From Stappia stellulata (GTDB lineage Bacteria > Pseudomonadota > Alphaproteobacteria > Rhizobiales > Stappiaceae): a stretch of 64,000 nt of DNA. Positions 42,541 to 58,822 of the stretch are shown here, piece by piece (positions within the stretch are counted from its first letter, which is position 1; the number at the start of each line of letters is the position of its first letter). The notes under the pieces are model-generated. The model saw nothing but the letters and a program-made list of their open reading frames with translations. It was not told the origin of the DNA and did no database searches. The translations under genes were made by a program, and so were the position numbers. The stretch spans positions 62,001-126,000 of the forward strand of contig NZ_JAIVMF010000013.1 of assembly GCF_020176715.1 (NCBI RefSeq), in the 5' to 3' direction.

Positions 42541-42749
42541 GAAACTCTCCGCTGATAACTGATCTTGCAGCGCACACTATGGGGCGGCCCCCGCCTGCGC
42601 AAGATGCCGCCGCCGAGCCCGCAGGCCGGCATTTGTTGCCGGGAGCGCGCGGACAAAGCTGCCGGTCGGTCGTGCCCTGCCTGGCCCGCGGCCCGGAAGC
42701 TGAATCCGAAAATCTCGATATTCCATATGGTTAACGAAATTTCTTGAAC

Positions 42750-42764
42750 TGGCACAGTGTTTGC
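42750..42764 (+). promoter_or_regulatory. Sigma-54 promoter of the hook operon
   Basis: TGGCAC-AGTGT-TTGC has GG and GC exactly 10 bases apart, matching the -24/-12 consensus. It lies 70 bases before the flgE start, with TTAAC at 42731 upstream. In Caulobacter hook genes also use RpoN, so the position is meaningful. Confidence 0.75.
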
Positions 42765-42834
42765 CAACCTCAGGACCGAGACCGGCGTGCCCAGCAGCGC
42801 CGGAAAGTCCGTCCTGTCCGTCCTGGAGGATCAC

Positions 42835-44250
42835 ATGGGTGTTTTTGGTGCATTGAACGCGGCCGTCTCCGGCCTTTCCGCGCAGGCTTTTGCGCTGGAG
42901 AACATCTCGGGCAACATCGCCAACGCGGCGACCGTTGGCTACAAGCGGCTCGACACGTCGTTTTCCGATCTCGTCGGCGGCGGCAAGGGCGCGCAGCCCG
43001 GACAGATCGCCGGCACGGTGTCCGCCAACTCGCGCGCGACCAATGGCCTGCAGGGCGATCTGCAGCAGAGCCAGGTCGACACCTACATGGGGATCAACGG
43101 CGGCGGCTATTTCGTCGTTCAGGGCAAGGCCGGCGAGGTCGACGGCCGGACGATCTTCTCCGGCAACGATCTCTACACCCGTCGCGGCGATTTCGAGGTC
43201 GACAAGGAAGGCCGGCTGGTCAATGGCGCCGGCTACTACCTGATGGGCCAGCCGATCGATCCAGTCACCAAGAACGTGTCCGGCTCGGTTCCCCAGATCA
43301 TCACCATCGACAATTCGGTCATTCCGGCCGTGACGACCGATCGCATCCGCTATGAGGGCAATCTGCCGACGACACCGCAGACGAGCAACCAGCTCGGCGG
43401 CGGTGACGAGTTGCTCGACGCGACGCTGACCAAGGCATCGACGGGTGCCGCTCCCGATGCGGCGGCCGCCGGCCAGACCGTTGGCGTCGATGCCATCAAT
43501 GCCGCCGACGAGGTGGCCTTCCTCAACACCTCCATCGCCGGCGAGGCAATCACCGTCTACAACTCGAGCGGTACGCCGGTGAACGTGCAGATGCGCTGGG
43601 CCAAGACCTTCGAGGACAATGGCACGCAGCCGGACACCTGGTCGCTCTACTATCTGTCCGATTCCGCCGCCACGGGTGCCAATCCGAAGTGGACCAAGGT
43701 GTCGGACGCGCAGTTCGATTCCAGTGCCGGCAACGGCGGACAGATGCTGGTTCCCGCCAATGACGCGATGACGATCACCGGCCTTGCCGTCGATGGCGAA
43801 GTTGTCGGTGACATGACGCTCGACTTCGGCACCGGCGCTTTGACGCAGTTCTCCGATTCCAACGGCAGCGCCAAGATCTCCAAGCTGACGCAAAACGGCT
43901 ATCCCTCCGGCGACCTTGCCGGCATCTCGATTTCGGAAGCCGGTCGTCTCGTGGCCTCCTACTCCAACGGCCGGACCCGCGAGCTGCACGAGATTTCGCT
44001 GGTGTCCTTCTCCGGCGAGGCCTGGCTTGAGCGCGTCGATGGCGGCGCCTTCGAGGTCACGCCGGAATCGGGCGAGCCGATCGCGGGCGCGCAGGGTCGC
44101 ATTGTCGGCAAGCGGCTTGAAGCGTCCAACACCGACATCGCCGATGAATTCTCCAAGCTGATCGTCACCCAGCAGGCCTATTCCGCCAACACGCGGATCG
44201 TCTCCTCGGGTGACCAGATGCTGCAGGAAGCCATCAACATGATCCGGTAA
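42835..44250 (+). CDS. flgE: Flagellar hook protein FlgE
   Basis: FlgE polymerises into the hook joining rod and filament. The 471-residue product begins GVFGALNAAVSGLSAQAFAL, then NISGNIANAATVGYKRLDT, the flagellar rod/hook N-terminal signature. GDFEVDKEGRLVNGAGYYLMG lies in the central part, and it ends SKLIVTQQAYSANTRIVSSGDQMLQEAINMIR, the C-terminal helix of the axial family. ATG 42835 has GGAGGA just before it; the frame is open upstream without resemblance. It is the first gene of flgE-flgK-flgL behind a sigma-54 promoter. Confidence 0.94.
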   Translation: MGVFGALNAAVSGLSAQAFALENISGNIANAATVGYKRLDTSFSDLVGGGKGAQPGQIAGTVSANSRATNGLQGDLQQSQVDTYMGINGGGYFVVQGKAGEVDGRTIFSGNDLYTRRGDFEVDKEGRLVNGAGYYLMGQPIDPVTKNVSGSVPQIITIDNSVIPAVTTDRIRYEGNLPTTPQTSNQLGGGDELLDATLTKASTGAAPDAAAAGQTVGVDAINAADEVAFLNTSIAGEAITVYNSSGTPVNVQMRWAKTFEDNGTQPDTWSLYYLSDSAATGANPKWTKVSDAQFDSSAGNGGQMLVPANDAMTITGLAVDGEVVGDMTLDFGTGALTQFSDSNGSAKISKLTQNGYPSGDLAGISISEAGRLVASYSNGRTRELHEISLVSFSGEAWLERVDGGAFEVTPESGEPIAGAQGRIVGKRLEASNTDIADEFSKLIVTQQAYSANTRIVSSGDQMLQEAINMIR

Positions 44251-44266
44251 GCGGATCTGGAGGACA

Positions 44267-44292
44267 GCCCGGCCGGAGCGATCCGGCCGGGC
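44267..44292 (+). terminator. Strong hairpin between flgE and flgK
   Basis: GCCCGGCCGGA-GCGA-TCCGGCCGGGC is an 11-bp perfect stem with a 4-base loop and no T-run. It lies 17 bases after flgE and 37 before flgK. It could shield the flgE mRNA 3' end or attenuate flgK expression. Confidence 0.5.
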
Positions 44293-44328
44293 ATGACGTG
44301 ATCGCAGGCGCGAGGGCCGGGTGAGACG

Positions 44329-46212
44329 ATGGGACTGAGCAGCGCTCTCAATACCGCATTGATCGGACTGGGGTTCAACCAGCGTCAGCTCGATGTGACG
44401 GCGACCAACATCGCCAATGCCGACACGGTCGGCTACACGCGAAAGTCCGTCTCCGCGTCCGTCACCTATGACGGCAACGGCATCGTCACCGGTGTCGAGG
44501 CGGACAGCATGCGCCGCTATCTCGACACGGCGGTGCAGGGACAGTACCGCACCTCGCTGGCCGAACAGAATTACGCAAGCGTTGCCCAGCAGTACACCGC
44601 GCGTCTCGACACGCTGTTCGGCACGATCAAGGACGCGGGCTCGCTGCCCAACACCGTCAATTCCTTCATTTCGTCGATGTCCAACCTGGTGTCCGGCCCG
44701 GAGGATTACACCAACCGGCTGGAGGTGATGCGCAACGCCGAAGCGCTGGTCGGCAAGATCAATGCGATGTCGGAAGACATCCAGGGCATGCGGCAGGAGG
44801 TCGAGTACCAGATCGGCGAGCAGGTCGACCGGGTCAACGATCTTCTGGCGGACATCAAGGCGATCGACCGGCAGGTGATCGCGGCGAGCCAGGACGGCGA
44901 CAAGCCGGTCGGGCTGATGGACCAGCGCGACATGCTGCTGGAGGAATTGTCCGGCTATATCGACATCGAGGTCAAGCCGACCGAGCAGGGGGGCGTGCGC
45001 GTCCACACTTCCGGCGGCACGATGCTCTACGACGTCGACGTGATGAAGCTGAAGTTCGACGGGCGCGGCAACATCAACGCCGATGCGCTTTACAACATCG
45101 ATCCGGCCAAGCGGCGCGTGGGAACGCTGACGCTGGAGAATTCCGAAGGCAGCCAGATCGACCTTCTGTCGACGCGCACCCTGCGCAGCGGGTCGCTCGT
45201 CGGCCTGGTCAATATGCGCGACGAGGCGCTGACCGACGCGCAGACGCAGCTCGACGAACTGGCCGCCTCGCTGGCGCGGGCGTTTTCCACCCATGTGGAG
45301 CCGGGAACCGCCTATCCCGCGTCCGGCACCCAGACCGGCTATGAGCTGGATCTTGCCAATCTCCAGCCCGGCGACAGCGTGTCCTTCAATTACAAGGATC
45401 TCGGCACCGGGCTCAGCAAATCGGTGACGATCTACCGGTCCGACGGCCCGGAGCCGCCGGCGCTGACCGCGACCAACGATCCGGATTCGATCTTTCTCGC
45501 GGTGGATTTTTCCAGCGGCAACCATGCGACGATTGCCGCCAACATCCAGAGCGCGCTCGATGGCGACGCCCGCATTGGCGCCGGCACCTTCGCCGCGGCC
45601 AACCCGGGCGGTTCGACGCTGCGGCTGGAAAGCACGGCGCCGGCCAGCCTGCGGATCGAAGCGGCACAGACGAACGAGACGGTCTCCGGTCCGTCGGCCC
45701 ATGGCGATGCCTTTGCCCTCTTCGTGGACGACGGCGACAAGACCTTCACGGGGATGGCGGACGGGCGGCCGAACATCACCGGGTTTGCCTCGCGCATTCG
45801 CGTCGGGGCCACCTTTGTCAACGATCCGTCGCTGCTGGTGGAATATGCCCCCGGGATTGCCAATGGCGACGCGACGCGCCCGCAGGCTGTCCTCGACAAG
45901 CTGACGCTGACCAAGACCACCTTCACCCCGAAGACGCGCATCGGCGGATCCGGCTCGCTGTTCGAAGGGTCGATCAACGACTTCGTGACCGCCTCGGTCT
46001 CGCATCAAAGCGGGCGTTCCGCGCAGGCGAAGGCGACGGTCACCGGCCAGCAGGTGGTGACGTCGAACCTCAAGTCGCGGCTCGACGATTCCTCGAAGGT
46101 CAGCGTCGACCAGGAGCTTGCCCAACTGGTCCAGCTCCAGAACGCCTATGCGGCCAACGCACGCGTGATGCAGGTCGTGCGCGAACTCTACGACATCCTG
46201 ATGCGGAGCTAG
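44329..46212 (+). CDS. flgK: Hook-filament junction protein 1 FlgK
   Basis: FlgK (HAP1) caps the hook before filament growth. The 627 residues start SSALNTALIGLGFNQRQLDV, then TNIANADTVGYTRKS, the N-terminal axial motif. They end LVQLQNAYAANARVMQVVREL, the C-terminal axial helix. The variable central domain (about 250-560) matches the family length. It is followed by flgL after 9 bases and preceded by a hairpin after flgE. Confidence 0.93.
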   Translation: MGLSSALNTALIGLGFNQRQLDVTATNIANADTVGYTRKSVSASVTYDGNGIVTGVEADSMRRYLDTAVQGQYRTSLAEQNYASVAQQYTARLDTLFGTIKDAGSLPNTVNSFISSMSNLVSGPEDYTNRLEVMRNAEALVGKINAMSEDIQGMRQEVEYQIGEQVDRVNDLLADIKAIDRQVIAASQDGDKPVGLMDQRDMLLEELSGYIDIEVKPTEQGGVRVHTSGGTMLYDVDVMKLKFDGRGNINADALYNIDPAKRRVGTLTLENSEGSQIDLLSTRTLRSGSLVGLVNMRDEALTDAQTQLDELAASLARAFSTHVEPGTAYPASGTQTGYELDLANLQPGDSVSFNYKDLGTGLSKSVTIYRSDGPEPPALTATNDPDSIFLAVDFSSGNHATIAANIQSALDGDARIGAGTFAAANPGGSTLRLESTAPASLRIEAAQTNETVSGPSAHGDAFALFVDDGDKTFTGMADGRPNITGFASRIRVGATFVNDPSLLVEYAPGIANGDATRPQAVLDKLTLTKTTFTPKTRIGGSGSLFEGSINDFVTASVSHQSGRSAQAKATVTGQQVVTSNLKSRLDDSSKVSVDQELAQLVQLQNAYAANARVMQVVRELYDILMRS

Positions 46213-46221
46213 TGACGAGCA

Positions 46222-47760
46222 ATGGCGATCAATCCCTACGGCGGCGGATTTTCGGCTCCCAGCCAGGTCACCTATCTGACCAGTCTGCGCAACCAGATGA
46301 ACGATCTTCAGCGCCAGCTCGGCACCAACCTGAAGTCGGAGACCTATGGCGGGCTCGGCTCGGAGCGGGTGCTCAACCTGTCGATGAAGCAGCAGCTTTC
46401 GGAGATCGGCGTCTACAAGCAGACGATCCAGATCGCCGACCTGCGGCTGTCCACGCTGGATCAGGCAAGCGAGCGGCTGGAGGATATCCGCATCGAGGCG
46501 AAGGCCGCCACCGACCGGAACAATTTCGAGCTGTTCAGCGACGGGCGCACGTCGACGCAGACGTCGACCGAAATCGCCCTGCGCGAGTTCATGGCCCATC
46601 TGAACACCGATGTCGGCGGGCGCTACCTGTTTTCCGGAAAGACGGCGGACACGCTCCCCGTCCAGAGCCTCGACTACGTGCTGAAGGGCGACGGCAATTA
46701 TGCCGGTCTCAAGACCGTGGTCGGCGAATACAACCAGGCGGATCTCGGAGCGCTCAACAATGGGCGGTTGACGACCGCCCGGGTCGGGACCCAGGTGAGC
46801 GTTGCGGAAGACGGGGCTCATCCCTTCGGCTTCAAGATCGACAGCGTGGCGTCGGGGGCGACCAATGTGTCGATAACCCAGACCGCGGGACCGCCGGCGA
46901 CGCTCGACGTCGACTTTACCGGCCAGCCGCAGCCGGGTGAGACGATCCGGGTGTTTTTCTCGCTGCCGGACGGGTCGAAAAGCGAGGTCGAGATCGGCGT
47001 CTTCGGCGGCGCGAACGATCCCGAGTTCACCTTCCAGCGCGGCGCGACCCCGGCCGATACGGCCCAGTTCTTCAAGGATGCGCTCGACACCGCGCTGCAA
47101 CGCGAGGCAAACACCGAGCTGAAGGCGGCGTCGACGGTGCGGGCCACGGAAGCCTTCTTCGACACGGCGCCGAAATCTCCGGTTCCGCCCGGCTATCAGC
47201 CGCTCGCCCGCGTGGTGCCGAGCGCCGGTCCGCCGGTGGATTTCAGCACCGCCACCAGCCTGCGGGACGGCACCAATGACACGGTCGCCTGGTACACCGG
47301 CGACAACGATCTTGGCGACCCGCGCAAGGACAGCCGGGCGACGATCGACGAAAACCTGACCGTGAACTATGGCGCCCGTGCCAATGAGGCGGGGTATCGC
47401 GAGGTCGTCCAGGCGCTGGCCGGCTTCGCTGTCGCCGACTTCTCCAACGGCCAGCCGGACAATCAGAAGTTCTACGAGGCGATGGCGCAGCGCTCCTATG
47501 ACGGGTTGACCCCGCCGGGATCGGAATCCTCCGGCATTCGCCGCAACCACATGGAATTCTCCGCCGCGCAACGCACGGTGAAGGATGCGGAGACCCGCCA
47601 CAGGGTGGCGGAAGGATCCGTGAAGTCGGTGATCGACGAGATCGAGGGGATCAACAAGGAAGAGGTTGCAACCAAGCTCCTGTCGCTGCGCACCGCCCTC
47701 GAGGTCAGCTACCAGGCGACGAGCATCACGTTGAACCTCTCGCTGTCGAACTATCTCTGA
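46222..47760 (+). CDS. flgL: Hook-filament junction protein 3 FlgL
   Basis: FlgL (HAP3) is the flagellin-like adaptor between FlgK and the filament. The 512-residue protein has an N-terminal coiled region (VTYLTSLRNQMNDLQRQLGTN, SMKQQLSEIGVYKQTIQIA) and a C-terminal region (KEEVATKLLSLRTALEVSYQATSITLNLSL) typical of the flagellin/FlgL superfamily. It is longer than E. coli FlgL (317) because of an inserted central domain, as in other alphaproteobacteria. It directly precedes the hairpin array. Confidence 0.9.
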   Translation: MAINPYGGGFSAPSQVTYLTSLRNQMNDLQRQLGTNLKSETYGGLGSERVLNLSMKQQLSEIGVYKQTIQIADLRLSTLDQASERLEDIRIEAKAATDRNNFELFSDGRTSTQTSTEIALREFMAHLNTDVGGRYLFSGKTADTLPVQSLDYVLKGDGNYAGLKTVVGEYNQADLGALNNGRLTTARVGTQVSVAEDGAHPFGFKIDSVASGATNVSITQTAGPPATLDVDFTGQPQPGETIRVFFSLPDGSKSEVEIGVFGGANDPEFTFQRGATPADTAQFFKDALDTALQREANTELKAASTVRATEAFFDTAPKSPVPPGYQPLARVVPSAGPPVDFSTATSLRDGTNDTVAWYTGDNDLGDPRKDSRATIDENLTVNYGARANEAGYREVVQALAGFAVADFSNGQPDNQKFYEAMAQRSYDGLTPPGSESSGIRRNHMEFSAAQRTVKDAETRHRVAEGSVKSVIDEIEGINKEEVATKLLSLRTALEVSYQATSITLNLSLSNYL

Positions 47761-47777
47761 GGAGCAAACCGTTTCTC

Positions 47778-47793
47778 GCCGCCGTCAGGCGGC
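47778..47793 (+). repeat. Leader hairpin of the 3' array
   Basis: GCCGCC-GTCA-GGCGGC, 17 bases after the flgL stop. Its loop differs from the repeated hairpins that follow from 47806. Confidence 0.5.
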
Positions 47794-47805
47794 TTCATGG
47801 GGGCC

Positions 47806-48063
47806 GGACGCAGAAGGCGTCCTTGAACGCGCAGAAGGCGCGAAGACGAATGACCCCGGAACGGGGCGCAGGAGGCGCTCCGGAGCGCGCAGAAGGCGTG
47901 AGAGCGGACCGGGTGGCGGGCACAGAATGTGCCCTTGAACCGCGCAGAAGGCGCGAAAGAACCGACCGGGACGGGCGCAGAAGGCGCCCTTGAACGTGCA
48001 GAAGGCGCGACGGACCACCGGACAGACGAACGCAGGATGCGTTGCGGATCGCGCAGAAGGCGC
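47806..48063 (+). repeat. Five-unit tandem array of paired short hairpins
   Basis: Ten hairpins share a five-base loop AGAAG (variants AGGAG, AGAAT, AGGAT). They form five units whose first loops start at 47812, 47870, 47924, 47979 and 48034, and whose second loops start at 47833, 47891, 47946, 48000 and 48055, a period of 54-58 bases. In the first hairpin of each unit the stem changes but still pairs: GGACGC/GCGTCC, GGGCGC/GCGCTC (one G-T), GGGCAC/GTGCCC, GGGCGC/GCGCCC, AACGC/GCGTT. The second is near-constant CGCGC/GCGCG. TTGAA links the pair in three units. The period is not a multiple of three, so the repeat is not protein-coding. Confidence 0.8.
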
Positions 48064-48067
48064 AAGC

Positions 48068-48108
48068 AAAAAGGGGAACCGGCACGAGCCTGCCGGTTCC
48101 CCTTTTTT
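48068..48108. terminator. 17-bp perfect intrinsic terminator after the array
   Basis: AAAAAGGGGAACCGGCA (48068-48084) pairs fully with TGCCGGTTCCCCTTTTT (48091-48107), with a T-run on the + strand. It ends the flgE-flgK-flgL transcript or a separate array RNA, and could work in both directions. Confidence 0.9.
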
Positions 48109-48219
48109 GTTCGTGGTTGCCGGTCTTCGCATTCGCGACAACTCGAGCCCGCGTGAAGGTGTGTCGATAGAGTATTATTCAATATACATTCCGACCTTTA
48201 AGATCGAGAGCCCGCCGCA

Positions 48220-48237: not shown

Positions 48238-49080
48238 TTGCAGTTGGGGTTCCCATTAGCAAGATCAAGACGTCGTTTATCTTCTTTGTGTTTTCGCTTT
48301 GTTTTGGTCTTTTTTTCATCTCCGGCCATGGCATTCGAGTTGAACGCTCGCACTGTCGTTGTCGACGGGCTTCAGGATATCGACGACGGGGACGGCTTCT
48401 CGGCTTTCGCTCTACGTCGCGCCGGCATCGGCAAGATCGCTCTGGATGTCACGTCGGGCGGCGGGCGCAAGCCGCATGACTACACGCTTCATGTCTCGCG
48501 GATGATCAAGGAGGCGGCCCCTCCGATCATCGAGGCGAAGCTCACCCTCGACAAGCACGGCGACCGCGGTAAGGCGGTCAAGTCGGGACCGCTGACGTTC
48601 GATCTTCCGGATCTGGGTGTTTCCGGGTCGCATGTGTTCGAATTGCAGGCAGGGCTGGATGTGCTGCGGATGGTGATCGAGGTCGGGGCCGGAGCCGACG
48701 AGAGTGCAGCGACTGTGCCCTCCAGTCCGCCGCTGGCAATCGCTTCTGGCGTGCCGTCGGACCTGGGTGATCCGTTGCTCTCCCTCGACAGTGCCGAAGT
48801 TGTCTCGGGGATCAACGGCAGGACGCTTCTCGTTGGGCTTTCCCATCAGCGGGCGTGCGGCGAGGCGTCCTTCAAGGCCTGGTGGGACGGGTCCTTCCTA
48901 AAGAGCCTGCCGCCGCGGGCCAGTGTTGTGGTTGTCTACGAGGCAGGCGGGGATTTGTGCGAAGGGCGTGTCGATACAACGCTGCAGATAGACGTCGACG
49001 AGCTTCTGGACAATCAGGGTGAACTCTACATCGATGTCCACGGGCGCAATGTGCAGAGTGTCGAAGTGCTCGTGCGATAG
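48238..49080 (+). CDS. Secreted protein of unknown function inside the flagellar region
   Basis: This 280-residue frame starts with TTG at 48238 (a second TTG at 48244 is possible). It has a signal peptide (LCFRFVLVFFSSPAMA) with cleavage after AMA. The mature part has beta-strand patterns (FELNARTVVVDGLQDID, GPLTFDLPDLGVSGSHVFEL) and two Cys (RACGEASF, DLCEGRVD). No domain is recognised. It is downstream of the flgL terminator and reads towards flaF, with which it converges. AT-rich early codons suggest a recent or weakly adapted gene. Confidence 0.6.
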   Translation: MQLGFPLARSRRRLSSLCFRFVLVFFSSPAMAFELNARTVVVDGLQDIDDGDGFSAFALRRAGIGKIALDVTSGGGRKPHDYTLHVSRMIKEAAPPIIEAKLTLDKHGDRGKAVKSGPLTFDLPDLGVSGSHVFELQAGLDVLRMVIEVGAGADESAATVPSSPPLAIASGVPSDLGDPLLSLDSAEVVSGINGRTLLVGLSHQRACGEASFKAWWDGSFLKSLPPRASVVVVYEAGGDLCEGRVDTTLQIDVDELLDNQGELYIDVHGRNVQSVEVLVR

Positions 49081-49230: not shown

Positions 49231-49599
49231 TCAGCTCCCGCGCAGGCCCATTGCAATGTTGCGATTGATCTGGATGAGCGTCGTCAGCCGCTCCGGGCTC
49301 GGGTTCGACATCACGTCGAACGTATGCTTCAGGATGAAGGCGCCGAGCGAACCGAGGTTCTGCTTCACCTCGTCCGGAAGCGGGTTGTCATTGCTCGTCA
49401 CGGAGGTCGCGAGGATCGTCCACAGACGGCGATTGTAGGTCAGGGCGTCGTCGAGGGTGACGGGTCCGCCGGTTTCCCAGTCATCCTTGACCGCTTGCAG
49501 GCGCGCGGCCGCCTTCATCAAGAGGGTCGCTTCCAGCTCCCTCGGGCTCACCGCCGTTTGCGCTGTCTGCTGATATGCTGCCGTGGCCTGATTGTACAT
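49231..49599 (-). CDS. flaF: Flagellar biosynthesis regulator FlaF
   Basis: FlaF is an alphaproteobacterial flagellin chaperone or regulator needed for flagellin synthesis and export. The 122-residue protein has the family start YNQATAAYQQTAQTAVSPRELEATLLMKAAARL. LTYNRRLWTILATSVTSNDNPLPDEVKQNL lies in the middle, and the C-terminal part is helical with LIQINRNIAMGLRG. Its first 119 bases overlap the 3' end of flbT in another frame. It is the last gene of the leftward flbT-flaF unit. Confidence 0.92.
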   Translation of the reverse strand: MYNQATAAYQQTAQTAVSPRELEATLLMKAAARLQAVKDDWETGGPVTLDDALTYNRRLWTILATSVTSNDNPLPDEVKQNLGSLGAFILKHTFDVMSNPSPERLTTLIQINRNIAMGLRGS

Positions 49600-49975
49600 G
49601 TTCGATCAGTTCCCGTTCATACTCGACCAGTTTTCGAGCCCGTCTCAATGCAGCGTAGAGCGACCCGGTTAAGATCTCATTGTTGACCGCATCGATCAGG
49701 TCCATTGCGCTCGGTGCGGCCTGAATCAGATCCTGTATCAGCTCGAAGTAGATCTTCTTGTGCCGCTCGATGTCCTGGTTCAGGTACATGAGCTGGACGG
49801 CCAGATAGATACGCTTTGCCGGCGTATTCGCCGTCTGGGCCGTGTAGATGTCCTTCTCGCGCAGGATCGGTTCATTGCCCTCAATAAAGATATGCGTCCG
49901 GTGATCTCCATTGGTGATGACCGTGGAACCGATGATAAATCTTTCGCGAGGACGCAATTCGATCTTGAGTGCCAT
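49481..49975 (-). CDS. flbT: Flagellin mRNA regulator FlbT, extended tail
   Basis: FlbT binds the 5' leader of flagellin mRNA and limits its translation in Caulobacter. The 164-residue product has the family core ALKIELRPRERFIIGSTVITNGD, then FIEGNEPILREKDI, AVQLMYLNQDIERHKKIYFELIQDL and GSLYAALRRARKLVEYERELI, up to about residue 126. The last 39 residues (GSISADSANGGEPEGAGSDP...) lie entirely in the part that overlaps flaF. FlbT proteins are usually near 130-150 residues, so the tail is somewhat long. It is downstream of the flagellin genes, with about 340 bases between. Confidence 0.9.
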   Translation of the reverse strand: MALKIELRPRERFIIGSTVITNGDHRTHIFIEGNEPILREKDIYTAQTANTPAKRIYLAVQLMYLNQDIERHKKIYFELIQDLIQAAPSAMDLIDAVNNEILTGSLYAALRRARKLVEYERELIEHVQSGHGSISADSANGGEPEGAGSDPLDEGGRAPASGQG

Positions 49976-50317: not shown

Positions 50318-51706
50318 TTAGAAGAGGCTGAGGACCGCCTGGTCGGCCTGCGAGGACAGCGACAGGGCTGTGGTCGACAGCTGCTGGCGGGTCTGCAGGG
50401 CCAGAAGGTTCGCACCTTCCTCGTTGGTGTCGGCCAGAACCAGGTTGTCCGCGCCGGTCTGCAGCGTGTTGATCGTCGCCTTGGTGAAGTCCTTGCGGAT
50501 CTGCACCATGGAAAGGTTCGAACCGAACTTCGATCCGGCCTCGCGCAGGGTGATCAAGGCGGTCGACAGCTCGTCGAGCGCGGTGTTCGCCTCGGTGTCG
50601 TTGAGGCTCGTTGCCTTGGTGATGCTGAGACCCGAGGAGGTCAGGTCCTCGCCCTGGATCTTCAGCTCCGACTTGGTGGCCGCGTCACGCTTTTCGTTGA
50701 AGGCGACGGTCAGCTTGGACGAGGAGGAGTTGATCAGGTTGATGCCGTTGAAGGAGGCATCGGCGGCGAGCTTGTCGATCTGGCCCAGGATGTCGTTGAA
50801 CTGCGACACCAGCTTCTGGCGGGTGGAGGAGTTCGAGGCCGGGTTGGCCTGGGTGGTGATCGACAGTGTATCGGCTGCACCGGCTGTCGCACCGTCGGTG
50901 AAGGCCACCGCGGTCTCGCCGGCGTCGACATAGTCGCCATCGGCCGGGGAGGACAGGTCGATGTTGGAGTTCGTGCCGAAGCCGAGCGATGCGGCCAGCG
51001 AGGTCGCCTGGGTGGTGGCCGTGGAGGCGTCACCGCCCGTGTCGACGATCGACAGGTTGACCGTCTCGGCGTCGGACCCGGTGAGCTTCAGCTTGCCGGC
51101 GTCGGTGACTTCGGCCGTGGCAACGCCGGAGGCGTTGACGACATCGAGAACGTCCTGGACGGTCGAGACCGGGCCGGTGCCGTCGGTCTTTTGCGTCGTG
51201 CCGACGGTGATCGAGATGTTGGAGACCGACCCCGTGCTGGTGTCGGTCGTCTGCACCGTGATCGTGTCGCCGGCCGCGAAGCCGAGGTTCGACAGGGTCT
51301 GGCGCTTGGCCTGATCCTGGATCGATTCGCCGGCGATCGGCGTCAGGCCGTTGGTGGAGATCGACGACGAGCTCTCGATGATGGTGCCGGACCCGGCGCC
51401 ACCGTCCTGCAGCGCCTGACGCGCGGTCGACTGGGCACTTTCCACCAGCTTGGTGATGGCGGTGATACCGTTGTCGGCGGCCTCGATCGTCTTGATCGCG
51501 TTGCCGATGCCATCGAGCAGGTTTGCGAGGTCATTGGCGCGCGCGGACAGCGACTGCGAGGTAAAGAAGTTGGTCGGGTTGTCGAGGGCCGAGTTGACCT
51601 TCTTGCCGGTGGCAAGACGGTTCTGGGTGGAGGCCATCATGTCCGCGGTGCTCTGAAGCGTGAGCAGGTTCTGGCGAACACCGGCGGAGAGGGTAATGTC
51701 AGACAT
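50318..51706 (-). CDS. Flagellin, tandem copy 1
   Basis: Flagellin is the filament subunit, exported by the flagellar type III system. The 462 residues have the N-terminal D0/D1 helix (SDITLSAGVRQNLLTLQSTA...NRLATGKKVNSALDNPTN), a Ser/Thr/Ala-rich variable middle (about 150-300), and the C-terminal helix (NTLQTGADNLVLADTNEEGANLLALQTRQQ, ending QADQAVLSLF). By eye it differs from copy 2 at about 17 positions, many in the middle domain. The start codon follows GAAAGGATTTCACC. Named only as flagellin because fla/fli letters differ among genera. Confidence 0.95.
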   Translation of the reverse strand: MSDITLSAGVRQNLLTLQSTADMMASTQNRLATGKKVNSALDNPTNFFTSQSLSARANDLANLLDGIGNAIKTIEAADNGITAITKLVESAQSTARQALQDGGAGSGTIIESSSSISTNGLTPIAGESIQDQAKRQTLSNLGFAAGDTITVQTTDTSTGSVSNISITVGTTQKTDGTGPVSTVQDVLDVVNASGVATAEVTDAGKLKLTGSDAETVNLSIVDTGGDASTATTQATSLAASLGFGTNSNIDLSSPADGDYVDAGETAVAFTDGATAGAADTLSITTQANPASNSSTRQKLVSQFNDILGQIDKLAADASFNGINLINSSSSKLTVAFNEKRDAATKSELKIQGEDLTSSGLSITKATSLNDTEANTALDELSTALITLREAGSKFGSNLSMVQIRKDFTKATINTLQTGADNLVLADTNEEGANLLALQTRQQLSTTALSLSSQADQAVLSLF

Positions 51707-51784
51707 GGTGAAATCCTTTCGCCTAGTCCCGTTTGTCGGGACCGCCTCGTCCTGAGGCTTTCAACGAAGGTGCCTTAATTATCC

Positions 51785-51954: not shown

Positions 51955-53343
51955 TTAGAACAGACGCAGCACCGCCTGGTCGGCCTGCGAGGACAGCGAC
52001 AGGGCTGTGGTCGACAGCTGCTGGCGGGTCTGCAGGGCCAGAAGGTTCGCACCTTCCTCGTTGGTGTCGGCGAGCACGAGGTTGTCCGCGCCGGTCTGCA
52101 GCGTGTTGATCGCCGCCTTGGTGTAGTCCTTGCGAATCTGCACCGTGGAGAGATTCGAACCGAACTTCGATCCGGCCTCGCGCAGGGTGATCAGGGCGGT
52201 CGACAGCTCGTCGAGCGCGGTGTTCGCCTCGGTGTCGTTGAGGCTCGTCGTCTTGCTGATGTTGAGGCCCGAGGAAGTCAGGTCCTCGCCCTGGATCTTC
52301 AGCTCCGACTTGGTGGCCGCGTCACGCTTCTCGTTGAAGGCGACGGTCAGCTTGGAGGATGAAGAATCGATCAGGTTGATGCCGTTGAAGGAGGCATCGG
52401 CGGCGAGCTTGTCGATCTGGCCCAGGATGTCGTTGAACTGCGACACCAGCTTCTGGCGGGTGGAGGAGTTCGAGGCCGGGTTGGCCTGGGTGGTGATCGA
52501 CAGGCTGTCGGCGGCACCGGCGGTCGCACCATCGGTGAAGGTCACCGCGGTCTCGCCGGCGTCGACATAGTCGCCATCGGCCGGGGAGGACAGGTCGACG
52601 TTGGAGTTCGTGCCGAAGCCGAGCGACGCGGCCAGCGAGGTCGCCTGGGTGGTGGCCGTGGAGGCGTCGCCGCCCGTGTCGACGATCGACAGGTTGACCG
52701 TCTCGGCGTCGGACCCGGTGAGCTTCAGCTTGCCGGCGTCGGTGACTTCGGCCGTGGCAACGCCGGAGGCGTTGACGACATCGAGAACGTCCTGGACGGT
52801 CGAGACCGCACCGGAGCCGTCGGTCTTTTGCGTCGTGCCGACGGTGATCGAGATGTTGGAGACCGACCCCGTGCTGGTGTCGGTCGTCTGCACCGTGATC
52901 GTGTCGCCGGCCGCGAAGCCGAGGTTCGACAGGGTCTGGCGCTTGGCCTGATCCTGGATCGATTCGCCGGCGATCGGCGTCAGGCCGTTTGTGGAGATCG
53001 ACGAGGAGCTCTCGACGATGGTGCCGGACCCGGCGCCGCCGTCCTGCAGCGCCTGACGCGCGGTCGACTGGGCACTTTCCACCAGCTTGGTGATGGCGGT
53101 GATACCGTTGTCGGCGGCCTCGATCGTCTTGATCGCGTTGCCGATGCCGTCGAGCAGGTTGCCGAGGTCATTGGCGCGCGCGGACAGCGACTGCGAGGTA
53201 AAGAAGTTGGTCGGGTTGTCGAGGGCCGAGTTGACCTTCTTGCCGGTGGCAAGACGGTTCTGGGTGGAGGCCATCATGTCCGCGGTGCTCTGAAGCGTGA
53301 GCAGGTTCTGGCGAACACCGGCGGAGAGAGTGATATCGGACAT
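51955..53343 (-). CDS. Flagellin, tandem copy 2
   Basis: This 462-residue flagellin is about 96% identical to copy 1 by my reading. Substitutions include ANDLG/ANDLA, GAVS/GPVS, NSNVD/NSNID, TVQIRKDYTKA/MVQIRKDFTKA and the last VLRLF/VLSLF. The DNA is also nearly identical through most of the gene, including silent sites, which suggests recent duplication or gene conversion. N- and C-terminal D0/D1 helices are intact. AAAGGAATTCCGA precedes the ATG. It is a separate transcription unit, with its own terminator. Confidence 0.95.
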   Translation of the reverse strand: MSDITLSAGVRQNLLTLQSTADMMASTQNRLATGKKVNSALDNPTNFFTSQSLSARANDLGNLLDGIGNAIKTIEAADNGITAITKLVESAQSTARQALQDGGAGSGTIVESSSSISTNGLTPIAGESIQDQAKRQTLSNLGFAAGDTITVQTTDTSTGSVSNISITVGTTQKTDGSGAVSTVQDVLDVVNASGVATAEVTDAGKLKLTGSDAETVNLSIVDTGGDASTATTQATSLAASLGFGTNSNVDLSSPADGDYVDAGETAVTFTDGATAGAADSLSITTQANPASNSSTRQKLVSQFNDILGQIDKLAADASFNGINLIDSSSSKLTVAFNEKRDAATKSELKIQGEDLTSSGLNISKTTSLNDTEANTALDELSTALITLREAGSKFGSNLSTVQIRKDYTKAAINTLQTGADNLVLADTNEEGANLLALQTRQQLSTTALSLSSQADQAVLRLF

Positions 53344-53418
53344 TCGGAATTCCTTTCTGGCTGTCCAAGAGTGTCGGGCCTCGTCCTGAGGCTCGACGCC
53401 AGAATAGGTGCGTAAAGT

Positions 53419-54954: not shown

Positions 54955-55310
54955 CGTACCTTTCTGGTGCGGATCTTCACAACGGGTTCTCGTTGCCCGG
55001 TCACGTTAGGTCCGCTTTCCCGAACGGTTCGTAAAAACAAAGGGTTAACGTAGGTTAGGGTTAACGCTTCATTACAGGCGGCGCGGCAAGCGGGCGCGCG
55101 GTGCGCCCGTTTCCTCACGTGCTTGAAAGGTCTCGCCGAATCAGGCCGCATTCGCGATAATGCGGCGCAATTGTCCCTTTGAACCAAGGTTCGAAGAAGG
55201 AATGGAGCACGGCCTCGGTGAGCCAAAGTCGTGCAAAGGATCGCCCCGACCGGACTGCCTTCTGACGAAGGGTCGAGGTAAACGCCTCATAGTAGTTGGA
55301 AATATGCCAG
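54955..55310. other. Divergent intergenic region, flagellin 3 / sugar cluster
   Basis: No gene seen. AGGGTTAACG occurs twice with a 16-base period (55041-55050 and 55057-55066). On the - strand TTAA-CCCTTTG-TTTT sits about 80 bases before flagellin 3. A hairpin GCCGCATT-CGCGAT-AATGCGGC is at 55145-55166. The promoters for both directions must lie here. Confidence 0.5.
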
Positions 55311-56180
55311 ATGAGCCTCTTCTCGTTTGACCGGTGTGCGGTCGTCGCCGAAATCGGTATCAACCACAATGGAAGCCTCGATCTGGCTTTGGAGATGATC
55401 CGTGCCGCGCATCGCGTGGGATGCGACGCAGTCAAGTTTCAAAAGCGCTCCGTAGACGTGGTCTATTCGGCGGAAGAGCTTGCCCGGCCGCGCAAGTCGC
55501 CGCTCGGGGAGACCAACGGCGATCTGAAGCGCGGGCTTGAGTTCGACCGCAAGGACTATGAGCGGATCGCCGCCTTTTGTGCCGACCTCGGCATTGTCTG
55601 GTACGCCTCGCCTTGGGATGAGGAGGCGCTCGATTTTCTCGTCGACCTCAAGGCGCCCTATCTCAAGATCGCATCGGCGTCGGTGACGGACCGAAACCTC
55701 ATTGAGCGCGCCGCACGTTCCGGCATTCCGCTCCTGGTCTCAACGGGCATGTGCGACTTGAGAATGGTCCGCAGCGCCGTGGAAACCATTGAGGCGGCCG
55801 GCGGCGAAATCGCCTGCCTGTACCATTGCACCTCGACCTATCCGGCGCTGCCGGAGGAGATCAATCTCGCCGGCATCTCGACCCTGCGCGAACGCTTTCC
55901 CCATCTCAAGATCGGCTACTCCGGCCACGAAGAAGGCATCCTTCCAAGCATCCTGTCGATCGCTTACGGTGCGGTATCGGTGGAGCGGCATTTCACGCTC
56001 GACCGGGCAATGTGGGGCTCCGACCAGTCGTCGTCCATCGACGTGCCGCAGATGACCGAGATGATTGCCGGCATTCGCCTGGCGGAAAAGGCGCGCGGCG
56101 ACGGGCAGATCAGGATCTACGAGCGCGAACGCCCCGTTATGGAAAAGCTGCGCCGCAAGGACACCCTCAGCGTTGAGTGA
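55311..56180 (+). CDS. NeuB-family nonulosonic acid synthase, lacking the SAF domain
   Basis: This is a NeuB-type enzyme that condenses phosphoenolpyruvate with an N-acyl-hexosamine to form a nine-carbon sialic-type sugar. The 289-residue TIM-barrel has VAEIGINHNGSLDLALEMI, VKFQKRSVD, WYASPWDEEALDFL, LKIASASVTDRNLI, LLVSTGMCDL, CTSTYPALPEEINLAGI, GYSGHEEGI and ERHFTLDRAMWGSDQ, all NeuB motifs. It stops where typical NeuB proteins (about 345 residues) continue into the C-terminal antifreeze-like SAF domain. ATG 55311 was preferred to TTG 55296. It leads a four-gene + strand run with overlapping junctions. Confidence 0.85.
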   Translation: MSLFSFDRCAVVAEIGINHNGSLDLALEMIRAAHRVGCDAVKFQKRSVDVVYSAEELARPRKSPLGETNGDLKRGLEFDRKDYERIAAFCADLGIVWYASPWDEEALDFLVDLKAPYLKIASASVTDRNLIERAARSGIPLLVSTGMCDLRMVRSAVETIEAAGGEIACLYHCTSTYPALPEEINLAGISTLRERFPHLKIGYSGHEEGILPSILSIAYGAVSVERHFTLDRAMWGSDQSSSIDVPQMTEMIAGIRLAEKARGDGQIRIYERERPVMEKLRRKDTLSVE

Positions 56181-56199
56181 CCCCGACGCCTCGAGCGAG

Positions 56200-57369
56200 A
56201 TGCGCAAGCTGACGGCCCTACATCTGGCGTCCTTTGTGGGAAATCTCGGCGACAATGCCATGCACGATGGCGAGTATCGCACGCGCGCGGCCGATCTGCC
56301 GTTTTGCCTGGATCACCGCGCCTGCGAGGTTCGAGACTTCATCCATTGGCACGAGAGGTCGTTCGACGAGCGTTTCGTTGCGGACGCGGCGCGTGCCGAT
56401 GTGCTCGTCGTTGGCGGGTTCAGCGTGTTTCAGCTTTGGCGCGACACCACCGTTTCCGGCACCTATCTCGATGTGAGCGCAGAGTTTTTCGCAAACCTTC
56501 CATGCCCGGTGCTGTTTCACGGGCTTGGATGCGATGCGACGCGTGGCGTGAATCCGCTTGCCGTCGAGCGAACGCGCGCCTTTCTGGATGTGCTTCTGCC
56601 GCGGGAAGACTGTCGCTTTTCTCTGCGCAACGACGGCTCGGTGGACCTGATCCGCGCGCATCTGGGACCCCGCTACGCCGACGCGATGGAGATCGTTCCC
56701 GACGGCGGCCTCTTTGGCGAACCCAGGAGCCATGTCCATGCCGGACTTTCTGCCGATGCGCGCTTCATTGCCGTCAATCTGGCCGGAGACATGCCGGACA
56801 AGCGCTACCGGAGCGCGGATGGCGTTGATCTGACGGAACGCTTCGCGCGGGAGGTCGCCGATGGGCTCGGCGCGCTGATGGCGGAGGATCCCACCCTTCA
56901 ATGCGTGTTCGTGCCGCATATCTATAGCGACTTTGAGCCCATCTCGGCCGTACTCGACGCCTTCGACGACCGGCTGCGGCGCACGCGCGTTCTCGTTGCC
57001 GGCCTTGCCCAGGGCGAGGCGGGCTGGTCCGCCTCCTTCGATCTCTACCGGCGCGCATCAGCGGCGATTTCCATGCGCTATCACGCATCGCTTGGGTCGA
57101 TCGGGTTCGGGACACCCGTTCGCGGTATCTCCACCCACCACAAGGTCGAGGGCCAGTTCGCGGCCTATGGTCTTGCCGAGCGCTGTCATCCGTTTTTGGA
57201 GCACAGCGACCTTCGGCCGCTCTTTGCCGGGCTAGCGCGCGACCTCGCCGATCCCGAACCGGTGCGCCGGCAATTCCTTGAGATCAGGCGGTCGGAGCGG
57301 GCGCGGCTGTCGCGGTATCATGGCGAGGTCGCGACCTGGCTCATGGGCCAGACGGGGGCGCGCGCGTGA
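56200..57369 (+). CDS. Polysaccharide pyruvyl transferase family protein
   Basis: The 389-residue protein resembles WcaK/CsaB pyruvyl transferases, which add ketal pyruvate to sugars. The N-terminal part has LHLASFVGNLGDNAMHDG and the C-terminal part SMRYHASLGSIGFGTPVRGI, the R-x-H motif region of the family, with STHHKVEGQF after it. A TTG at 56173 overlapping the NeuB stop is an alternative start. In nonulosonic acid clusters such proteins decorate or polymerise glycans; the acceptor is not known. The stop overlaps the next gene. Confidence 0.75.
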   Translation: MRKLTALHLASFVGNLGDNAMHDGEYRTRAADLPFCLDHRACEVRDFIHWHERSFDERFVADAARADVLVVGGFSVFQLWRDTTVSGTYLDVSAEFFANLPCPVLFHGLGCDATRGVNPLAVERTRAFLDVLLPREDCRFSLRNDGSVDLIRAHLGPRYADAMEIVPDGGLFGEPRSHVHAGLSADARFIAVNLAGDMPDKRYRSADGVDLTERFAREVADGLGALMAEDPTLQCVFVPHIYSDFEPISAVLDAFDDRLRRTRVLVAGLAQGEAGWSASFDLYRRASAAISMRYHASLGSIGFGTPVRGISTHHKVEGQFAAYGLAERCHPFLEHSDLRPLFAGLARDLADPEPVRRQFLEIRRSERARLSRYHGEVATWLMGQTGARA

Positions 57370-58118
57370 GTTCAATCATCGACGAGTGTCTCGCGCTCTA
57401 CGGGTCGGATGCCTATTTCGTGCGCTATCCCGCGCGCGAGGCGGAGGTTGAGTATTGGGACGAAAAGCGCGATCCCGATGGAAACATTCGCGATCTCGCC
57501 GCCGAACGGGACCAGCGCAAGGCGGATCTTGCCTATATCGCGGACGCGGTGAATGCGCGGGCCGCCGGGCGCGTGGTCGATGTCGGCTGCGGGCTGGGCG
57601 AATTGCTCGAACAGATTTCCCCGAAACACGAGCGCGTCGGCGTCGATCCGTCCGAACGCGCCGTCGAGGTCGCGGCGGAGCGCAGCGGCGCGCGCACGCT
57701 GCGCGGGGAGCTCTCCGTCGATCTCTTTCCGGCGGGCTCCTGCGACACCATCATTGCGCATCATGTCATCGAGCATATCGAGGAGCCGGTGGGATTCGTC
57801 GAGACCGTGCGGCACCTGCTTGCACCGGGCGGGGTGTTCGTCGTCGGTACGCCGAATTTTGCCAGCGCGGCCGCCCGCCGGTTCGGTGAGCGCTTCCGCT
57901 TGCTGCACGATCCGACGCATGTCAGCCTTTTCACCGACGACTCGCTCCTGCGTCTCTTGCGCGATTTCGGGTTTCGCGTCGCGGCGGTGGAGTATCCCTT
58001 TTTCGGGACGCGCTTTGCCACCGACGAGGCCTGGGCACGCATGCTTGACGCGGAGAAGGGCGTGTCGCCGGCATTTTGGGGGTCCTTCGTGACGGTCTTT
58101 GCGGAAAAAACATCATGA
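57366..58118 (+). CDS. SAM-dependent methyltransferase (Methyltransf_23 type)
   Basis: The 250-residue class I methyltransferase has the SAM-binding VVDVGCGLGELLEQI (about 69-83), DTIIAHHVIEHIEEPVGFV and LAPGGVFVVGTPNFAS. The HHVIEH and GTPN patterns are common in sugar and lipid methyltransferases of glycan clusters. It starts with GTG at 57366 in a GTGA overlap with the pyruvyl transferase gene and ends in an ATGA overlap with the cytidylyltransferase gene. It may methylate the flagellin glycan. Confidence 0.8.
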   Translation: MSSIIDECLALYGSDAYFVRYPAREAEVEYWDEKRDPDGNIRDLAAERDQRKADLAYIADAVNARAAGRVVDVGCGLGELLEQISPKHERVGVDPSERAVEVAAERSGARTLRGELSVDLFPAGSCDTIIAHHVIEHIEEPVGFVETVRHLLAPGGVFVVGTPNFASAAARRFGERFRLLHDPTHVSLFTDDSLLRLLRDFGFRVAAVEYPFFGTRFATDEAWARMLDAEKGVSPAFWGSFVTVFAEKTS

Positions 58119-58822
58119 TTTGCGATGCCATCGTGCTGGCACGCGGCGGATCCAAGGGGATCCCGCGGAAGAACCTCGTGCCCGTTTGCGGCAAGCCGCT
58201 GATCGCCTGGACGATCGAGGCCGCCCGCGCCTCCGGGTTCGTCCGCGATGTGGTGGTCTCCACCGACAGCGAGGAAATCGCGGAGACGGCCCGGAGCTTT
58301 GGCGCGCGGGTGCCGGTGCTGCGTCCCGACGATCTGGCGACCGACACATCGCCGGCGGAGGGCGCGCTGCGTCACGCACTTGCCGAGATTTGCAGGCCGG
58401 AAACACCGGAAGCGGTGCTGTTTCCGCAGGTGACGTCGCCGGTCCGCCGTCGCGATACGCTGGCCGACGCCTTCCGGCACTTCGTCGAGGGGGACTATGA
58501 TTCCCTGTTTTCGGCGCGCCTGATCCGCAACTACATCTGGCGCAACCTGCCCGAGCCGCAGCCGCTTTACGATCCGCACAACCGCTTGATGCGCCAGCAG
58601 ATCCCGCCCGAGGACCGCTATTATCGCGAGACCGGCAATTTCTACCTCTTCCGTACCCAGAGCTTTCTGGAGACGGGTTGCCGGCTGACGGGGCGGATCG
58701 GGTTTTTCGAGACCACCGACGAGGAGGTGGTCGAGATCGACGAGCCGGACGACATTGCGGTCGCCGAACTCATGCTGGAGCGGCTTGCCCGAAATCTCGA
58801 CATCCATCCGATCCAGATGTGA
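58115..58822 (+). CDS. CMP-nonulosonic acid cytidylyltransferase (NeuA-like)
   Basis: This enzyme would activate a nonulosonic acid as CMP-sugar for transfer. The 235-residue nucleotidyltransferase has IVLARGGSKGIPRKNLVPV (NTP-binding), STDSEEIAETARSFGA, VLFPQVTSPVRRRDTLADA and YRETGNFYLFR, the NeuA/NeuA-like pattern. ATG 58115 overlaps the methyltransferase stop. Together with the NeuB-like gene it gives synthesis and activation steps; the enzymes making the hexosamine precursor are not in the window. Confidence 0.88.
   Translation: MICDAIVLARGGSKGIPRKNLVPVCGKPLIAWTIEAARASGFVRDVVVSTDSEEIAETARSFGARVPVLRPDDLATDTSPAEGALRHALAEICRPETPEAVLFPQVTSPVRRRDTLADAFRHFVEGDYDSLFSARLIRNYIWRNLPEPQPLYDPHNRLMRQQIPPEDRYYRETGNFYLFRTQSFLETGCRLTGRIGFFETTDEEVVEIDEPDDIAVAELMLERLARNLDIHPIQM

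Follow-up and report, generated by a model that had tools for sequence, protein, structure and literature searches.

A tandem array of ten AGRAN pentaloop hairpins behind flgL in Stappia stellulata, a candidate decoy for the flagellin mRNA regulator FlbT

The CsrB and RsmZ RNAs are built of numerous hairpins whose purine-rich loop is conserved, followed by a closing terminator, and titrate a translational regulator; the classic reader of GGA hairpins is CsrA. In Campylobacter, a flagellar mRNA, that of flaA, is described as titrating the regulator of flagellin translation; there the target mRNA is itself the sponge and CsrA the reader, whereas in Stappia a separate ten-hairpin array lies after flgL, and the relevant section of the same article calls Caulobacter FlaF/FlbT possibly analogous to the flaA-CsrA system (PMC4894983). 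The E. coli sRNA FlgO also originates in a flgL 3′ UTR, but it is about 75 nt long and Hfq-bound, and the part of the report that deals with it describes no hairpin array (PMC10578931); its likeness to the present locus is one of origin. Binding of FlbT to flagellin 5′ UTRs is stated or proposed for Caulobacter and Brucella; its effect is given as repressing in one of the two and activating in the other, and the passages on it list the mechanism as unresolved (PMC4347634, PMC3930126, PMC8781033). Caulobacter FlbT is described as promoting the decay of its targets (PMC4347634), and repression in this organism is said to require the flagellin paralog FljJ (PMC7591256). The closest parallel to the leaders discussed below is this Caulobacter interaction of FlbT with flagellin 5′ UTRs (Anderson and Gober 2000, through the reviews PMC4347634 and PMC3930126); the FlbT sections of these reviews mention neither a recognition motif nor a decoy RNA, and the 2015 review treats FlbT recognition of flagellin mRNA as unresolved (PMC4347634). 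In the literature surveyed there is no mention of a hairpin loop or a sponge for FlbT, or of homology between FlbT and CsrA; that survey did not extend to the primary papers on FlbT (Anderson and Gober 2000; Ferooz 2011; Ardissone 2020), one of which may describe the loop.

The window (the whole 64,000-nucleotide stretch analyzed here) belongs to contig 13 of the 4.5 Mb Stappia genome. Its flgL-like gene, an open reading frame on the + strand (46222–47760) for the hook-filament junction protein, matches the NCBIfam flagellin, hook-associated and FlgL models, each below its cut-off, and has no Pfam match; it is preceded by flgK, which matches TIGR02492 above cut-off. The presumed 3′ UTR of the flgL-like gene carries an array of ten AGRAN pentaloop hairpins, arranged as five tandem pairs (47806–48063, + strand). 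Pair 1 (47806–47842) is GGACGC(AGAAG)GCGTCC at 47806–47822 and CGCGC(AGAAG)GCGCG at 47828–47842; pair 2 (47862–47900) has loops AGGAG (47870) and AGAAG (47891), pair 3 (47918–47955) AGAAT (47924) and AGAAG (47946), pair 4 (47973–48009) AGAAG at both 47979 and 48000, and pair 5 (48029–48063) AGGAT (48034) and AGAAG (48055), all on the + strand. Stems are 4–8 pairs long, hairpin 10 having only 4, and a C-G pair closes the loop in all ten. The loops lie 21–22 nt apart inside a pair and 33–37 from one pair to the next; this paired arrangement suggests two sites per unit for a dimer. An intrinsic terminator follows directly (48068–48107, + strand), formed by a perfect 17-bp inverted repeat (48068–48084/48091–48107) and a T run. 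The initial annotation had described ten hairpins in five tandem units after flgL with a 17-bp terminator; its loop list (AGAAG seven times, AGGAG, AGAAT and AGGAT once each) is exactly right, every loop fits A-G-R-A-N, and its unit length of 54–58 agrees with five direct repeats of 43 nt whose starts are 54–58 apart (47801–48065).

The array is far from what dinucleotide composition would give: 2000 dinucleotide shuffles contained a mean of 0.066 and at most 2 AGRAN pentaloop hairpins (stem of at least 4), compared to the ten present, and the opposite strand of the array contains none. All ten loops thus lie on the flgL strand, the same sense as in the flagellin leaders discussed below. The predicted fold of 47760–48110 has z = −5.2, and none of 100 shuffles was equally stable. 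A protein-coding role for the array was considered and rejected, since the unit length is no multiple of three and indels separate the species. No sigma-70-like promoter was found between flgL and the array, a result that has little bearing on sigma-54 or sigma-28 promoters.

The likeness to CsrB/RsmZ (Rfam RF00166, clan CL00106) lies in the many purine-loop hairpins, the terminator and the titration proposed below; the array differs in its loops, which are mostly AGAA rather than GGA, in its location behind flgL and in its proposed reader. GGA is present in 2 of the 10 loops. The csrA gene (PF02599) was detected in none of 14 Stappia genomes by a search that was positive in three control genomes. 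No Rfam family reaches its gathering score between 47500 and 52200, and the best match below threshold is RsmZ (47995–48108, 24.4 bits, E = 0.01, against a gathering score of 44). Thus, with score, GGA core and CsrA host all lacking, the array is not a member of the CsrB/RsmZ family, and the doubt about CsrA that the initial annotation drew from the rarity of the GGA core was justified; as a proposal, it may nonetheless work like a CsrB/RsmZ sponge.

Constraint on the array is clear from comparison of four orthologous arrays. Of the 40 columns for loop positions 1–4 only 2 are variable, each at position 3, compared to 4 of 10 for position 5, so the conserved loop is A-G-R-A and the fifth base is free; the loop previously called fixed is so only in its first four positions. 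The stems vary in 9 of 100 columns and the linkers in 54 of 110. Among the 50 inner stem pairs, 41 are unchanged standard pairs, five show a one-sided change that keeps pairing and three have a non-pairing member; no compensatory pair is found at orthologous places in the four genomes. Covariation is seen only when unit is compared with unit. In an alignment of 21 units from five genomes (19 of them distinct), both partners change in 4 of the 6 first-helix pairs and in 1 of the 5 second-helix pairs, and the covariation score is higher than in all 500 shuffles. The number of further pair types is unremarkable, being attained in 146 of the 500 shuffles, and the outermost two pairs are broken in 5 and 9 of the 19 distinct unit rows. 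Hairpins picked by their pairing were kept out of this evidence. The compensatory stem change with a fixed loop that the initial annotation claimed is therefore present between units of the array and absent between its orthologs.

All 14 Stappia genomes have flgL, and five of them have the array behind it: ten hairpins in G000, G004, G010 and G012, four in G009. The other nine lack it. The S. stellulata DSM 5886 locus (L098) has ten hairpins. The terminator closes the array in G004 and G012 as well (17 bp) and in G010 (15 nt, 93%). FlgL of the five carriers is 82–100% identical and that of the rest of the genus 73–77%, which makes the carriers the five nearest genomes; the most distant of them has the four-hairpin form (loops AGAAG, AGAAC, AGAAT and AGAAT). 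By this measure of FlgL identity, the distribution fits one origin and later growth.

Within its own genome the array is a single locus. A covariance model of the unit gives five matches, all in the array, and a next match of E = 0.09 (150 of 8426 first-look candidates scored), and BLAST finds only the array, with its own terminator stem as the only opposite-strand match. In 87 genomes of the family and 397 of the order (overlapping samples) the model finds the array and single places in G054, G779 and G831; here part of the first-look candidates was scored (75 per genome in the family, 16 in the order), with filters that lose weak matches. At loci L022 and L318 there is a lone hairpin within long open frames, and at L319, also in a long frame, no AGRA hairpin lies near the model match; the three single matches look like chance. 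When the fetched loci were scanned for clusters of at least three AGRAN hairpins, the Stappia arrays came up and only one other cluster, at L109, which is a flagellin leader.

The same loop occurs 3.6–7 kb from the array, in the flagellin leaders of the window. In two of the three leaders a GCCTC(AGGAC)GAGGC hairpin lies about 45 nt before the start codon: before the gene at 50318–51706 (leader element 51725–51758, − strand) it occupies 51744–51758 and is followed 17 nt on by GGTCCCG(ACAAA)CGGGACT (51725–51743), and before the gene at 51955–53343 it lies at 53378–53392 (− strand). The third leader, read by eye, has a hexaloop hairpin, CAACG(AGAACC)CGTTG (54980–54995, − strand). The array loops are mostly AGAA whereas those of the two main leaders are AGGA; array and leader element share the AGRAN loop, which in the element usually has a C-G closing pair, but the array, being 3′ of flgL, does not have the leader position 25–62 nt before a flagellin start.

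A leader census in which the loop was not preselected (every hairpin with a stem of at least 5 and a loop of 4–6 in 220-nt leaders) covered 122 non-redundant flagellin leaders of 193, mostly from Hyphomicrobiales, and 483 hairpins. AGAA (48) and AGGA (31) rank first and second of the 256 possible loop starts, ahead of CGAA (18); together they account for 79 of the 483 hairpins, where about 6 are expected (random segments drawn from these loci yield 3.1 AGAA and 2.8 AGGA, base shuffles 0.7 and 0.5). Between −62 and −25, with stems of at least 4, AGAA is present in 29 leaders, AGGA in 22 and the next tetramer in 7. By a different count (stem of at least 5, 150 nt), an AGRA hairpin is present in 58 of 129 leaders of flagellin genes, compared to 1.75% of random 150-nt segments. 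Other leaders seldom have one (flbT 1/47, flaF 0/39, flgE 0/47, flgL 1/16 and flgK 3/24, the last all from Bosea); behind genes the hairpin is found for 15 of 119 flagellin and 8 of 47 flgE genes, mostly in Bosea and relatives. CAGRANG sites picked by their letters alone form a hairpin in 31 of 59 cases in leaders and in about 217 of 2380 elsewhere in the loci (the latter an approximate figure obtained by subtraction). Some leaders have two or three AGRA hairpins in tandem, spaced by 15–21 nt, which is the look of one array unit, and in some Bosea leaders there are three, the last one over the Shine-Dalgarno sequence. No AGRA hairpin (stem of at least 4) lies at −62 to −25 or over the Shine-Dalgarno sequence in 56 of the 122 leaders, several from Bradyrhizobium among them. 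AGRA-hairpin leaders are also found in genomes without the array; this, and its absence from 9 of the 14 genomes of the genus, indicate that the array is not needed for the basic circuit.

Two side observations concern flagellin genes. In Bosea and relatives (L111, L117, L118 and L131) a tandem AGRA pair lies about 12–40 nt behind the flagellin stop codon. On the + strand of L098, near 11597, one S. stellulata flagellin match covers only the two ends of the query and lies in long frames that overlap, a hint of a large variable insert or a frame change.

The occurrence of one loop in both the array and the flagellin leaders points to FlbT as the candidate reader. The flbT gene (49484–49975, − strand; PF07378 137.9 bits, NF009432 above cut-off), for a flagellin mRNA regulator, lies 1.4 kb from the array, and flaF (PF07309 119.4 bits) is at 49231–49599 on the − strand. 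In an alphaproteobacterial class sample, FlbT was found in 135 of 385 genomes. Besides the genome studied here, this FlbT-positive set numbers 134, of which 80 were tested for CsrA and 57 were fetched around flbT (60 stretches); 43 of these stretches gave 66 flagellin-like genes and 65 leaders. The FlbT-negative set numbers 250, of which 160 were searched for flagellin and 68 were positive; outside that search were 7 genomes set aside by hand (some more than 90% complete) and 83 more. At least 60 FlbT-negative loci were reduced to 55 leaders by removing L294 and L296 (N-terminus uncovered), L267 (too short) and two near-duplicates. CsrA is present in 2 of the 80 FlbT-positive genomes and in 41 of the 68 flagellated FlbT-negative ones (Fisher 6e-16, kinship uncorrected), and some FlbT-negative genomes with Caulobacter-type flagellins may be incomplete FlbT-positive genomes.

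The kind of loop appears to go with the regulator present. The 65 FlbT-positive leaders (158 hairpins) have loop starts AAAA 17, AGAA 14, AGGA 7 and CAAA 7, and the 55 FlbT-negative leaders (136 hairpins) AGGA 11, AAAA 3 and AGAA 2; AGAA plus AAAA thus stand to AGGA as 31 to 7 in the first set and as 5 to 11 in the second (p 0.001, kinship uncorrected). In the FlbT-negative set all ten leaders with an AGGA hairpin come from CsrA-positive genomes, as do 35 of the 55 leaders overall. The broader classes are not very different between the two sets, with any AGRA hairpin in 18/65 FlbT-positive and 12/55 FlbT-negative leaders and any ANRA hairpin in 34/65 and 21/55. Since AAAA is the commonest loop start in other FlbT-positive lineages, carriers of FlbT do not all share one loop. 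Hairpins with AAAAC or AAAAT loops and a C-G closing pair are also present in leaders L180, L185 and L190 (in tandem in L180 and L190), before flagellins that we take to be Caulobacter-type from their N-terminus; they are apparently the counterpart of the AGRA element.

The explanation that we favor, at about even odds, is that the array, as part of the flgL 3′ UTR, acts as a decoy for FlbT and so frees flagellin synthesis when the hook-filament junction is being made. The AGRAN pentaloop before flagellin genes would mark flagellin mRNA for FlbT, and the array would be carried on the flagellar (flgK-)flgL transcript, so that transcription of the junction genes would supply ten extra predicted FlbT sites. 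By binding in trans these could draw FlbT away from the flagellin leaders, and flagellin mRNA would presumably become better translated or more stable as the hook becomes ready for the filament. The protein-sponging 3′-UTR RNA of the initial annotation thus remains the best-supported reading, with the sponging itself a prediction. The leader census provides a concrete candidate recognition element, a hairpin ahead of the flagellin start codon with an AGRAN or, in a broader definition, A-N-R-A-N loop, and the array is a putative natural decoy on which to try it. If FlbT binds it, the array would be a CsrB-type sponge for a non-CsrA regulator, built into a flagellar mRNA, and would show how RNA can serve to build a hook-filament checkpoint.

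Among the alternatives, the array could be a cis element on which FlbT or another protein controls the stability, processing or location of the flgKL mRNA without titration in trans. Its position directly behind flgL, the decay-promoting action described for Caulobacter FlbT (PMC4347634) and the tandem AGRA pair right behind the flagellin stop codon in Bosea and relatives all fit such a role; ten is a large number of sites for a cis signal, however, and the five tandem pairs look selected for number, which makes it unlikely. Rather improbable is another reader, such as Hfq, a ProQ-like protein or RNase III, acting on a 3′-UTR sRNA like E. coli FlgO, which comes from the flgL 3′ UTR, is Hfq-bound and has few targets, a titrating role being mentioned as possible in the part of the report concerned (PMC10578931). 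The terminator and the stable fold would suit such an sRNA, but a general RNA binder leaves unexplained both the enrichment of the loop in leaders and its variation with FlbT and CsrA content.

That the array is a functionless palindromic or tandem repeat, or a DNA-level structure or binding site, is quite improbable: it is tandemly repeated and cruciforms could form, but it occupies a single locus, its loops and stems are constrained relative to the linkers, and all ten loops are on the flgL strand. A dispersed REP-like palindromic repeat is rejected because BLAST and the covariance model find one locus in the genome; the repeat-family alternative of the initial annotation consequently has no support, and in place of scattered copies in many unrelated intergenic regions the model found, among the candidates scored, this array and the three chance-like single places. 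A CsrB/RsmZ-type sponge of CsrA itself, which the architecture and the sub-threshold RsmZ match recall, is extremely improbable in a genus where CsrA was not detected (controls positive), with GGA missing from eight of the ten loops and the gathering score not reached.

CsrA folds as an intertwined five-strand dimer. The AF2 model of FlbT, examined only as a monomer, has a five-strand N-domain (E2–7, E12–15, E18–21, E27–32 and E37–39) and four helices, with pLDDT 82 overall and 89 for the N-domain alone. In a profile alignment FlbT residues 3–40 are collinear with the RNA-binding core of CsrA (2–45), and the alignment ends with FlbT R39-E40 on CsrA R44-E45; R39-E40 is invariant in 56 family-level sequences. 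Comparison of 120 FlbT and 27 CsrA sequences by hhalign gave E = 7e-5, a probability of 63% and a score of 27.7, compared to at most 20.6 for 200 column shuffles and 10.0–20.1 for five other flagellar families. The similarity is weak: E is 0.0012 with small alignments and 0.0018 with a 50-residue alignment, and other alignments give probabilities of 15–36%. Comparison of the whole FlbT model and its N-domain with the PDB found no CsrA chain among the best 50 of 76 and the 33 of 33 Foldseek matches, nor among the best 50 and the 6 matches listed by VIA-align, monomers only being compared, a result that does not speak against kinship. A relationship between FlbT and CsrA is suggestive only.

A wider scenario, which we regard as doubtful, is that FlbT descends from a CsrA-like translational regulator and assumed the control of flagellin in those alphaproteobacteria from which CsrA was lost. 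Loop recognition would then have relaxed from AGGA to ANRA, and a CsrB-like decoy would have been re-invented in Stappia, where expansion of a leader-type hairpin to ten arrayed sites on the flgL mRNA would tie flagellin translation to hook completion. Should the mutual exclusion of FlbT and CsrA prove robust to correction for phylogeny, it would join two stories of flagellin translation control.

The remaining features concern the neighborhood of the array. A 280-aa open reading frame (48238–49077, + strand), unmatched in Pfam and NCBIfam, separates the array terminator from flaF. The terminator of G010 and G012 is followed within a few hundred bases by the flaF end, located by eye, so this frame seems to be extra in the window. 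Genes that by eye resemble those for a sialic or pseudaminic acid synthase and a cytidylyltransferase (55296–58822, + strand) adjoin the flagellin cluster, which suggests flagellin glycosylation. A 1674-aa open frame runs antisense through flgE, flgK and flgL (42577–47601, − strand), and probably results from codon usage at high G+C.
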